Source: Thalassospira profundimaris
Lineage (GTDB): Bacteria > Pseudomonadota > Alphaproteobacteria > Rhodospirillales > Thalassospiraceae
Direction: 5' to 3'
Assembly: GCF_003326795.1 (NCBI RefSeq)
Contig: NZ_JPWI01000001.1
Span: 558,001 to 622,000, forward strand
DNA: 64,000 nt
This document shows, piece after piece, positions 305 to 41,652 of the stretch. Below the pieces are notes generated by a model that searched no databases, had not been told where the DNA came from, and saw nothing but the letters and a program-made list of their open reading frames with translations. Within the stretch, counting starts at the first letter, position 1. Each line of letters starts with the position of its first letter. The translations under genes were made by a program, and so were the position numbers.

Positions 305-1534
305 ATGACTGACAAGACGGCCCCATCAACCGACCAGCACAGCGACGCCGGGCGCGGATTTCACCGGCTTGGCGCGCATATCGGCTTTTTGTTTGCCATT
401 TTGCTTCTGGCCGCAAATATGCGTGGCAGTATTGTCGGGCTTGGTCCGTTGGCTGAGATCATCGGAACGGATTTGTCGCTGTCGGGAACCCAGCTTGGTC
501 TTTTGACCACATTGCCGGTTCTGAGTTTCGGGGTTCTGTCGATTTTTGCACCGCGACTGGGACAAAAATTCGGGCTTGAGGCAACGCTTCTTACGATGTT
601 GCTGTTTATTGCCCTTGGGCAGGGGCTTCGTGCCAGCGGAGCCTATGACATCATGGTGATCGGGACGATCATTCTGGGTGCTGCGATTGCCGTGATGAAT
701 GTGCTGACTCCGTCGCTGGTGCGGCGCAGCTTCCCGACCCATGTTGCCTTTGTGACCGCCCTTTACACCTTTACCATGTCGAGTGGCGCGACCATTGCCG
801 CATTCATTTCTATTCCGATACGGAATGCCGTAGATGGGGACTGGCGCTGGTCACTGGGTGTGTGGGCGGTGTTTGCAGCCATTGCCTTTGTCTGCTGGTT
901 GCCGATGTTGCGCTACCGCCACAAGGCCCCGGCACCGGCGATGAATGCCAAAATATCGCTTTGGAAAAATACAGAAGCATGGTGGCTGGCGCTGTTCTTT
1001 GGCTGTCAGTCCCTGATGTTTTACACAGGGGTTGCCTGGCTTGCGAAGGTTTTCATCGATCACGGCATTACCGAGGCCGAGGCCGCAACACTTTTGTCGA
1101 TCTTTAACGTCTTTGGTATTCCTGCGGCCTTTGCGGCACCGCTGATCTATTCGAAAATTGCCAACAAGAAACTGGCGATGCTGGTGCTGCACATCCCGCT
1201 GATCATTGCGATTCCGGGCTTTGTGTTTGCCACGACCGAGCTTCCCTATCTTTGGGCAGTATGCCTTGGTCTGGGTCAGGGCAGCATGATCAGCATTGCC
1301 TTGACGCTGGTGGGGATGCGCGGGGCTGATCCGCAAACTTCCGCCCGTCTTTCAGGGATGGCGCAATCCGTCGGCTATCTGTTTGCGGCGATTGGTCCGG
1401 TATTGTTTGGCGCCCTTCATGATCTTCTGGGCGACTGGCAGGTCGCGCTTTATTTCCTGTTCATCGTGGTTGCAGTCCAGCTTGTCGCTGCAATGCGTGC
1501 CGGTTCGTCCGAGAAGATCGGCGTCAGCAACTAG
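305..1534 (+). CDS. CynX/NimT-like major facilitator transporter
   Basis: This is a 409-residue hydrophobic protein with about 12 predicted membrane helices, the usual MFS size. The first helix carries NMRGSIVGLGPL at residues 38-49, matching the helix-1 signature of the CynX/NimT branch (cyanate or nitroimidazole/organic anion transporters). The central cytoplasmic loop (around residues 205-225) is short and basic. It sits in the inner membrane. The substrate cannot be told from the sequence. It stands alone between a LysE-like exporter end and the heme locus, and a strong hairpin follows its stop. The ATG at 305 is chosen because it opens the frame just before the soluble N-terminal tail; AUGs further in would cut the first helix. 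Confidence 0.8.
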   Translation: MTDKTAPSTDQHSDAGRGFHRLGAHIGFLFAILLLAANMRGSIVGLGPLAEIIGTDLSLSGTQLGLLTTLPVLSFGVLSIFAPRLGQKFGLEATLLTMLLFIALGQGLRASGAYDIMVIGTIILGAAIAVMNVLTPSLVRRSFPTHVAFVTALYTFTMSSGATIAAFISIPIRNAVDGDWRWSLGVWAVFAAIAFVCWLPMLRYRHKAPAPAMNAKISLWKNTEAWWLALFFGCQSLMFYTGVAWLAKVFIDHGITEAEAATLLSIFNVFGIPAAFAAPLIYSKIANKKLAMLVLHIPLIIAIPGFVFATTELPYLWAVCLGLGQGSMISIALTLVGMRGADPQTSARLSGMAQSVGYLFAAIGPVLFGALHDLLGDWQVALYFLFIVVAVQLVAAMRAGSSEKIGVSN

Positions 1535-1575
1535 GTAGTATTCCCTCACCGCCATCAGTTCAGGGTTCTTATGCA

Positions 1576-1610
1576 AAAGGCCATATTTCCAACCCGGAAA
1601 TGTGGCCTTT
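1576..1610 (+). terminator. Rho-independent terminator after the MFS gene
   Basis: Fifteen-base arms at 1576-1590 and 1596-1610 pair with one G-U wobble around a 5-base loop. The 3' arm ends in TTT but the following T-run is short, so termination may be partial. It separates the transporter from the heme-uptake region. Confidence 0.7.
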
Positions 1611-1654
1611 GTCACATAATGGGACGGTAATTGACCCGCATTCATGTTTTGGCG

Positions 1655-1741
1655 CAACTGCGCAGTTGACTTTCATTCGCAATTGCATATAGGAATGCAA
1701 ATCATTATTAATATAGTCGGTGCATAAACAAGGAGTTTGTG
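1655..1741 (+). promoter_or_regulatory. Promoter/operator region of the heme-uptake operon
   Basis: A sigma70-like pair, TTGACT (1666-1671) and TATAGG (1688-1693) with a 16-base spacer, lies upstream of hemP. It is wrapped in symmetrical elements. CAACTGCGCAGTTG (1655-1668) is a perfect 14-bp palindrome overlapping the -35. TTGCAT (1683-1688) and ATGCAA (1695-1700) form a dyad over the -10. ATGCAAATCATTATTA (1695-1710) resembles a Fur-type site. AAGGAG follows just before hemP. Iron or heme control is inferred from position and AT-rich dyads; which regulator binds (Fur/Mur, Irr or RirA) cannot be decided here. Confidence 0.5.
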
Positions 1742-1909
1742 ATGCCTGACATCACAGGCAGGATTGAAAAACCGGGCGTTCCAGCTCAGGCGAAACATAT
1801 TCAGGTGGAAGAACTGATGGGAACTGACCGCGAGGTCATTATTATCCATCAGGGAGACGAATACCGCCTTCGTATGACGTCGAACAACAAGCTAATCCTG
1901 ACGAAATAA
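1742..1909 (+). CDS. hemP: HemP/HmuP-family small heme-uptake protein
   Basis: This is a 55-residue protein. Its C-terminal half matches the HemP family: a Gly/Asp-rich turn, IIIHQGDEYRLRMTSNNKLI (residues 33-52) and the closing LTK. The family is typically 50-65 residues and sits beside heme receptor genes. In Bradyrhizobium, HmuP acts with Irr as a co-activator of hmuR; whether this copy does so is inference. AAGGAG lies upstream (about 1730-1735) with good spacing to the ATG. The gene is the first of the heme locus, 121 bases before the receptor gene. Confidence 0.85.
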   Translation: MPDITGRIEKPGVPAQAKHIQVEELMGTDREVIIIHQGDEYRLRMTSNNKLILTK

Positions 1910-16712: not shown

Positions 16713-16802
16713 GTCGAGGCTCCAATGCAGCAAATTCAAGTGCGTTTGGAGACCCAGTTCGAAGTCGGAAAGATGGAGAACGCCGGAAAATCGCGTTCAC
16801 AC

Positions 16803-16897
16803 CGTCCCTACGCCAGTATGAACTGGATCAGGTTCAACGGGTCACTGCGCTGATGGCTCACGGCAGTTTCTCAGCCCCCTGACGGGGCTCCCCTTGG
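16803..16897 (-). ncRNA. TPP riboswitch (THI box)
   Basis: Read on the minus strand, the region begins CACCAAGGGGAGCC, continues with a P3 stem into GGCTGAGAAA, then ACCCGTTGAACCTGATC and CTGGCGTAGGGA. CTGAGA and the CCTGATC...GTAGGGA blocks are the conserved pyrimidine- and pyrophosphate-binding parts of the TPP aptamer. It ends about 90 bases before the thiM start, leaving room for an expression platform that would shut off thiME when thiamine pyrophosphate is abundant. Confidence 0.95.
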
Positions 16898-17029
16898 TGA
16901 GTGCTCAAAATGGGTTTTAATCCGCTTTCTGTCAATTCATCCCGTTGGTCCTGGTGCCTGAATATGAAAATGGCGAGACAGCCCAGGCCATCCCGCCATT
17001 TGAAAGATCATCCCGATGGTTGATTGCAG

Positions 17030-40533: not shown

Positions 40534-40561
40534 TTGCTTTCTGAACGCATGCGGATATGCT
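40534..40561 (+). promoter_or_regulatory. Candidate infC promoter
   Basis: TTGCTT (40534-40539) and TATGCT (40556-40561) with a 16-base spacer. Transcription from here would give a leader of about 90 bases that includes the hairpin at 40581-40602. Confidence 0.5.
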
Positions 40562-40580
40562 AGGTCAGGTTGGAACGAAA

Positions 40581-40602
40581 ACACTGTTTGATCAAGCAGT
40601 GT
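40581..40602 (+). other. Hairpin in the infC leader
   Basis: ACACTGTTT and AAGCAGTGT pair (one G-U) around GATC, followed by a pyrimidine-rich stretch (CTTTCGTCGTTTCTGTTTCTG). It could be a leaky attenuator or a feedback element ahead of infC. Confidence 0.5.
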
Positions 40603-40656
40603 CTTTCGTCGTTTCTGTTTCTGACCGATTTGTTTGATTACCATAGGAGATTATCC

Positions 40657-41193
40657 ATAGCACGACCACGCAAACCGATGCAGCCGACCAAGGAAGGTCC
40701 GCGCGTCAATGAGGATATCAAAGCCCGTTCCATCTGTGTTGTCGACGCCGAAGGCAATATGTCGGAGCCGATGACGGTGCGTGAAGGCATTGAAATGGCA
40801 GCGGAAGTCGGACTCGACCTGGTCGAAGTTGCGCCCAATGCCGAACCGCCTGTGTGCAAGCTGATCGACTACGGCAAGTTCAAATACGAACAAAGCAAGA
40901 AGCAGAACGAGGCCAAAAAGAAACAGAAGGTTATCGAGGTCAAGGAGATCAAGCTCCGTCCGAACATCGATACCCATGACTACAATGTCAAACTGCGTGC
41001 TGCGCAGAAGTTTCTTGGCGGTGGAGATAAGGTGAAAGTTACGTTGCGCTTCCGCGGACGTGAAATGGCTCACCAGGATCTCGGTCTTGGCATGTTGCAG
41101 CGTTTTTCGGGGGATCTTGAAGACCTCGCAAAACCGGAAATGATGCCAAAGATGGAAGGCCGTATTATGATTATGGTGCTGGCGCCGCGTTAA
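40657..41193 (+). CDS. infC: Translation initiation factor IF-3
   Basis: A 178-residue IF-3 that keeps 30S subunits free and proofreads start codons. The N-domain holds EGPRVNEDIKARSICVVDAE and the linker is Lys-rich (EQSKKQNEAKKKQK), before the C-domain VKEIKLRPNIDTHDYNVKL. The best start is ATA 40657: AGGAG (40645-40649) lies 7 bases upstream and the product begins ARPRKPMQPTKEG, close in length to E. coli IF-3 (180). The first ATG (40678) has no SD. A rare start codon is the known device by which IF-3 represses its own mRNA (AUU in E. coli). A terminator overlaps the stop. Confidence 0.9.
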   Translation: MARPRKPMQPTKEGPRVNEDIKARSICVVDAEGNMSEPMTVREGIEMAAEVGLDLVEVAPNAEPPVCKLIDYGKFKYEQSKKQNEAKKKQKVIEVKEIKLRPNIDTHDYNVKLRAAQKFLGGGDKVKVTLRFRGREMAHQDLGLGMLQRFSGDLEDLAKPEMMPKMEGRIMIMVLAPR

Positions 41194-41247: not shown

Positions 41248-41652
41248 ATGCCAGCAGGAAATGATCTTCTGATCGTTGGTGTCGACGATGACCCGAAAAG
41301 TCTGGTCTTGCTGAAACGAATCGTCGAGAGCGGCGGGTTCACGTTTCAGGGTGTTTCCTCTGGCAAGGATCTTCTCAAACTTTTGAAGACCAAACGTCCG
41401 CGCATCATTTTGATGGATATCATGATGCCTGACATGAACGGGTTTGAAACCGCACTTAATGTGCGGACCCATTTCCCCGATCTGGCCTGTGCGATCATTT
41501 ATGTCACCGCCCGTCAGGGCGAAGAAGACTTGCGTGGCGGTGTGGCCGCAGGTGGCAATGACTTCGTTCTCAAGCCGATTAACCGTGAAAAACTGATGAG
41601 CCGAATCGAGAAATGGATCGGCCGCGCACATACCATCAAAACGGCTGTTTAG
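41248..41652 (+). CDS. Single-domain response regulator (CheY-like)
   Basis: A 134-residue receiver with no output domain. The acidic pocket is D13/D14/D15, phospho-acceptor D57 in LMDIMMPDMNG, T87 in YVTARQ and K109 in FVLKPIN, all in place, so phosphorylation is expected. GTGTCGACGATGACCC-like codon use matches its neighbours. AGAGGGA lies ahead of the ATG. It follows infC by 55 bases past a terminator and no histidine kinase is adjacent; the orphan kinase at 47.9-49.9 kb is a possible but unproven partner. Confidence 0.9.
   Translation: MPAGNDLLIVGVDDDPKSLVLLKRIVESGGFTFQGVSSGKDLLKLLKTKRPRIILMDIMMPDMNGFETALNVRTHFPDLACAIIYVTARQGEEDLRGGVAAGGNDFVLKPINREKLMSRIEKWIGRAHTIKTAV

Follow-up and report, generated by a model that had tools for sequence, protein, structure and literature searches.

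AUA as the predicted infC start codon of Thalassospira and the commonest infC start in alphaproteobacterial samples

At which codon does translation of infC, the gene for initiation factor IF-3, begin in Thalassospira, and why would a codon that IF-3 rejects stand there? AUA, AUU, and AUC are listed as non-canonical starts subject to IF-3 discrimination in an excerpt of one source (PMC4611024), and an excerpt of another names IF-3, EF-G, and RRF as sensing the strength of codon-anticodon pairing (PMC10158994). We analyzed a 64,000-nucleotide stretch of the Thalassospira profundimaris genome (contig NZ_JPWI01000001.1), here referred to as “the window,” and compared its infC locus (Table 1) with those of relatives. 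The product is an IF-3: it scores 236.4 bits against NCBIfam TIGR00168 (cut-off, 60), exceeds the cut-off of PF05198, and aligns with IF-3 chains of the PDB. In the alignment with chain 8jsg_A, the GKFxYE Tyr is conserved, as are most of the basic residues in the C-terminal domain; some of these may belong to the codon-discrimination surface. On either side of infC lie genes for a family 9 glycosyltransferase and a response regulator (41248-41652); the latter, together with a membrane transport gene on the opposite strand (PF03547; 41764-42720), separates infC from the L35 and L20 genes, which were recognized by eye.

Table 1. Features at the infC locus, in window coordinates.
Feature	Position	Strand	Basis or remark
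Predicted infC promoter: TTGCTT (40534-40539), 16 bases, TATGCT (40556-40561)	40534..40561	+	Recurrence in the genus
Predicted 22-pair hairpin in the leader, after the promoter and before the ribosome site	40568..40626	+	Fold of 40566-40720
U-rich stretch, possible S1 binding	40610..40644	+	Precedes the ribosome site; role of S1 presumed
Shine-Dalgarno sequence AGGAG	40645..40649	+	Read in the window; kept in 29/29 Thalassospira
Proposed infC start codon ATA	40657..40659	+	Window sequence; ATA in 29/29 Thalassospira
infC, IF-3 gene	40657..41193	+	178 codons plus stop (41191-41193); TIGR00168, PF05198, PDB IF-3 chains
In-frame ATG, codon 8 of infC, first after ATA	40678..40680	+	Not the preferred start

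As read from the sequence, infC appears to start, behind a Shine-Dalgarno sequence, at a codon other than ATG, GTG, or TTG. Seven bases (ATTATCC) lie between AGGAG and the in-frame ATA, which is followed by GCA CGA CCA CGC AAA CCG ATG. This layout, with the 178-residue IF-3 that it yields, was the core of an earlier sequence-only reading of the locus, and it is borne out by the window and by every Thalassospira genome compared. The frame also holds canonical codons on both sides of the ATA. Translation might instead begin at the ATG at 40678, which would give an IF-3 of 171 residues and leave AGGAG-ATA as a relic or a site with some other use; the residues lost in this way precede the part of the protein that aligns with IF-3 structures. 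However, the sequence-only reading had found no ribosome site at this ATG, and our scoring agrees, at 1.5 against 6.5 for the ATA, with no purine-rich stretch before the ATG in the window sequence. Alternatively, the ATA could be an internal Ile codon of a protein begun upstream, where 31 codons pass without a stop and TTG stands at codons −29, −23, and −9 (40570, 40588, and 40630), yet these TTG codons score at most 3.0 in this species.

The motif itself carries little of the argument. The window contains a single AGGAG-N7-ATA where 0.40 would be expected, with at least one occurrence in 32 of 100 shuffles, and a looser form occurs 12 times against 10.5 expected; because the window count is at chance level, we dropped rarity of the motif as evidence for the ATA start. 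The 4.68-Mb genome has 37 sites, compared with 18 for a backward control. Reading 20 of the 36 sites other than infC turned up three open frames of more than 100 codons, all with a canonical codon at the first to fourth position past the ATA (in one, a 408-codon frame at L383, ATG follows the ATA immediately), and no second convincing ATA-started gene among those 20. What goes beyond chance is the location of the motif at infC and its conservation there.

The layout is fully conserved among the Thalassospira genomes searched. The sequence-only reading had stated that its absence from near relations would tell against an ATA start; infC was found in each of the 29 genomes, and none of them lacks AGGAG-N7-ATA. 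Across the genus, the ribosome site, the ATA, and the codons next to it are nearly unchanged, which speaks against a start at the ATG. Synonymous variation reaches 3 of 10 usable sites in codons 2 to 14, whereas 109 of 131 sites vary further downstream (Fisher p = 6e-4). The ATG at codon 8 is likewise present in 29/29, a point in favor of a start there. For an upstream start, the TTG at −9 is kept in 23 of the 29 species, and in one of the 29 (L019) the TTG at −23 scores 6.3, next to 6.5 for the ATA; against it, four of the 29 (L024 to L027) have no upstream in-frame canonical codon, and in L027 a stop lies 5 codons before the ATA. One of the 29 genomes carries, in addition, a second and divergent IF-3 gene (L030; G028:C1:41383-44592, IF-3 frame 1216-1770, minus strand), with 63% identity to its best match among the compared loci (L162), GGAG 6 bases before an in-frame ATA, and an in-frame ATG that overlaps the GGAG. 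This gene may be assembly contamination.

We surveyed infC starts beyond the genus in three sets. An order sample (96 of 100 genomes matched, 7 of them Thalassospira) supplied 89 loci; a class sample (143 of 144 genomes matched) supplied 140 that were not already included; and named relatives, among which at least 592 matches were confirmed, supplied 77 from the 80 best, after 3 from Thalassospira were set aside. The resulting 306 loci comprise 302 distinct ones, since four of the named set duplicate loci of the other sets, and one named locus (L067) bears the title of a Nitrosovibrio MAG. A fourth set comprises the 26 best-scoring loci from 44 genomes outside the class. We located infC frames by profile and scored in-frame codons for a suitably spaced ribosome site. 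Ambiguous and canonical calls were inspected, and starts were set by hand at 38 loci (30 among the 306 and 8 outside the class); doubtful automatic calls include L231, L238, and L273. The same score threshold gave calls at 301 of 306 loci in frame but also at 194 in the +1 and 73 in the +2 control frame, where they were spread over all start codons, so that a call at one locus alone is not decisive.

Automatic calls gave 58 ATA, 29 ATC, 1 ATT, and 1 TTG in the order sample (n = 89); 78 ATA, 34 ATC, 12 ATT, 4 each of GTG, ATG, and TTG, and 4 without a call in the class sample (n = 140); and 51 ATA, 17 ATT, 4 ATC, 4 CTG, and 1 without a call in the named set (n = 77). When all 64 codons competed on ribosome-site score, ATA (148), ATC (46), and ATT (17) took 211 of the 306 loci. 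After curation, the 306 comprised 190 ATA, 60 ATC, 29 ATT, and 4 CTG (together 283 “poor-codon” loci), 9 canonical starts, and 14 left without a call; removal of duplicate loci changes only ATA, to 186 of 302. A stricter rule gave 184 ATA, 56 ATC, 26 ATT, 4 CTG, 5 canonical, and 31 without a call. Within the named set (best 80 of at least 592 matches), ATA was found in 8 of 8 Rhodobacterales and 9 of 9 Azospirillaceae, and ATT in 17 of 18 Hyphomicrobiales; the 17 Acetobacterales had 12 ATA, 4 CTG, and 1 without a call. The CTG loci (L081, L083, L095, and L102; three Roseomonadaceae and one Acetobacteraceae) have CTG in place of ATA after CAGGAG. At L115 (Asaia astilbis NZ_BAJT01000014.1), counted as without a call, ATA follows CAGGAG out of the IF-3 frame, and this draft seems to contain a frameshift near the infC start. 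Curated loci from outside the class had 15 ATC, 7 ATT, 3 ATA, and 1 without a call. AUA is thus the commonest infC start in the alphaproteobacterial samples and the usual choice among the relatives compared, rather than the rare departure from AUU, perhaps a variant of the loop, for which the sequence-only reading had taken it.

Both other placements of the start fare poorly against these loci. At 86 of the 283 poor-codon loci, there is no in-frame ATG, GTG, or TTG anywhere from the upstream stop to the conserved RVN, although the poor codon after its ribosome site is retained; a stop immediately precedes the poor codon at 33 of the 283. Internal Ile codons are dominated by ATC, with ATA making up 115 of 2,497 (4.6%), compared with 190 of 283 starts, and infC ATA is therefore unlike an ordinary Ile codon. 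Taken with the scores and conservation above, we regard initiation at the ATG at 40678 as improbable, although this codon may be a minor start, and initiation at an upstream TTG as more improbable still.

The pattern of change among start codons points to selection. FastTree was used to build a tree of 344 IF-3 proteins (leader omitted), on which the shortness of the protein means that parsimony counts give orders of magnitude. Alphaproteobacterial starts changed at least 60 times with all states counted and at least 53 times among poor-codon rows only (ATA/ATC/ATT/CTG), whereas poor versus canonical, treated as two states, changed 6 times. Shuffled start labels required a mean of 94 changes and a minimum of 87 (100 shuffles). 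Changes from ATA numbered approximately 33 to ATC, 9 to ATT, and 1.4 to ATG (32.6, 5.9, and 1.0, respectively, with strict calls). Among changes from A at fourfold sites in these genes, 109 of 366 (0.30) were A→G, a rate at which the binomial probability of two ATG in 44 changes is 3e-5 and that of four in 46 is 6e-4. By the measure set in this analysis, then, the poor codon is kept and the canonical one avoided, in the 53 versus 6 changes and in the A→G deficit. Such frequent swaps among poor codons, with ATA giving way to ATG once or twice, fit selection for codons that IF-3 rejects. The dozens of mutual replacements suggest that AUA, AUC, and AUU are interchangeable for this purpose.

Canonical starts were concentrated in small genomes. 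Seven of the eight in the class sample lie in genomes no larger than 1.8 Mb, or 7 of 29 small genomes with an assigned start compared with 1 of 98 large ones (Fisher p = 1e-4, with relatedness uncontrolled); starts in this comparison were left unassigned in 7 small and 6 large genomes. The ninth, a TTG in the order sample (L206), belongs to a 3.7-Mb genome, so that 7 of 9 are small overall, and three of the nine calls (L163, L310, and L206) have weak scores. These counts hint that the feedback loop was lost during genome reduction. For the class as a whole, we lean slightly toward a reading of the sequences in which the infC start would be selected as a member of the codon class that IF-3 rejects: AUA by default, with frequent switches to AUC and AUU, CUG recruited in Roseomonas-type bacteria, and the loop dropped in favor of ATG, GTG, or TTG chiefly where the genome is reduced. 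Such losses, scattered and found mainly in small genomes, would offer natural experiments on the purpose of the loop.

The leader upstream of infC shows further conserved elements. TTGCTT, a 16-base spacer, and TATGYT recur in all 24 distinct Thalassospira leaders, although a generic promoter scan did not include the TTGCTT-16-TATGCT pair in its list; given this recurrence, infC is probably transcribed on its own, with roughly 90 bases of leader. The U-rich stretch is mostly invariant in 14 aligned Thalassospira leaders and diverged but still U-rich in the others; its positions 40620-40626 are paired in the fold of the window leader. We considered the hairpin as a conserved regulator and rejected it: the fold is strong in the window species (z = −1.92), but the mean z over the 24 distinct leaders is −1.06, with values of −2 or below in 6. 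An RNAalifold consensus of 14 leaders was disbelieved because it pairs promoter bases with the ribosome-site region. Regulation of infC by an L20-type RNA leader is known from Bacillus. A scan of the whole window against Rfam gave no match to an RNA leader family before infC at the gathering score, and we set this type of regulation aside; the only match at that score in the window was a TPP riboswitch (16788-16904, minus strand).

Translation of infC from the AUA at 40657 as part of negative feedback by IF-3 of the E. coli type is, we consider with good confidence, the best explanation of the locus, because the pattern fits selection for codons that IF-3 rejects. AGGAG and the U-rich leader would direct ribosomes to the AUA, where fMet-tRNA would pair imperfectly, the third position being mismatched. 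With abundant free IF-3, 30S complexes on the AUA would be ejected and infC translation would drop; when IF-3 is scarce, the AUA start would be tolerated and IF-3 produced. AUA, AUC, and AUU, and CUG in some Roseomonas-type relatives, would be interchangeable poor codons serving the same feedback. The layout, its conservation, and the avoidance of ATG are features of the sequences of Thalassospira and its relatives; that the loop runs in Thalassospira is inferred. Discrimination by IF-3 against such codons has been shown by others in other bacteria, and the loop in E. coli. The link to IF-3 autoregulation drawn in the sequence-only reading thus gains support from conservation, survey, and tree pattern alike, and the results suggest that this feedback, known from a single codon of E. 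coli, can be traced in the evolution of an entire class of bacteria.

It is also conceivable, though unlikely, that the AUA start is real but merely holds IF-3 low, without feedback by IF-3 in this organism. Non-AUG starts do lower expression: excerpted reporter results from Staphylococcus aureus put them at about 10% of AUG in RPMI and one AUA site at up to 30% in BHI (PMC13009471), and those from Listeria, where infC starts at ATT, rank ATG > ATA > ATT (PMC13068326). However, a weaker ribosome site or GTG or TTG would serve that end, yet a strong site and IF-3-rejected codons are kept, and codon swaps mostly stay within the rejected set.

Part of this is already known, namely non-AUG infC starts with IF-3 autoregulation and, in print for S. 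aureus, an AUA infC start. What may be new is the class-wide AUA default and the codon-class pattern, subject to arXiv 2008.10758, a preprint about genes that favor starts other than AUG, known to us from a citation, which may report part of the class-wide pattern. No paper among the matches listed in a search of open-licence literature presents AUA, by its title, as the usual alphaproteobacterial infC start.

Known systems resemble the Thalassospira gene in different respects. The RefSeq infC of an Azospirillum brasilense plasmid (NZ_CP033323.1, 113405-113938; L388) is annotated from ATA (position 377 of L388), as we propose for Thalassospira, but this IF-3 gene, unlike that of Thalassospira, is plasmid-borne. 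It adjoins rpsU and, like NZ_CP039640.1 (L389), has ATA after a GGAG-type site; of 76 plasmid records that match IF-3, Azospirillum supplies 15. For Azospirillum sp. TSH100, annotation places the infC start at an internal ATG and misses the ATA, one case of how gene finders restricted to ATG, GTG, and TTG would shorten or lengthen IF-3 in many genomes. In E. coli, infC directly precedes rpmI-rplT, which is not so in Thalassospira. The two otherwise share the gene, a non-canonical ATH start, and the predicted feedback, with AUA in Thalassospira and AUU in E. coli; an excerpt of PMC5472188 gives ATT for E. coli infC and ATC for Streptomyces and states that IF-3 autoregulates its own translation. 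Streptomyces with ATC, and Listeria and B. subtilis with ATT (AUU), thus use other IF-3-rejected codons (PMC5472188, PMC13068326, and PMC1805508, in excerpt). S. aureus shares both gene and codon with Thalassospira; the excerpted account describes an infC AUA start seen by Ribo-Ret, with a strong Shine-Dalgarno sequence and autoregulation proposed, as here (PMC13009471). Together with the Azospirillum annotation, this precedent tells against the rarity that the sequence-only reading had ascribed to AUA. S. aureus differs from Thalassospira in belonging to a distant phylum and in the evidence for its start, which is direct ribosome data there and sequence here.
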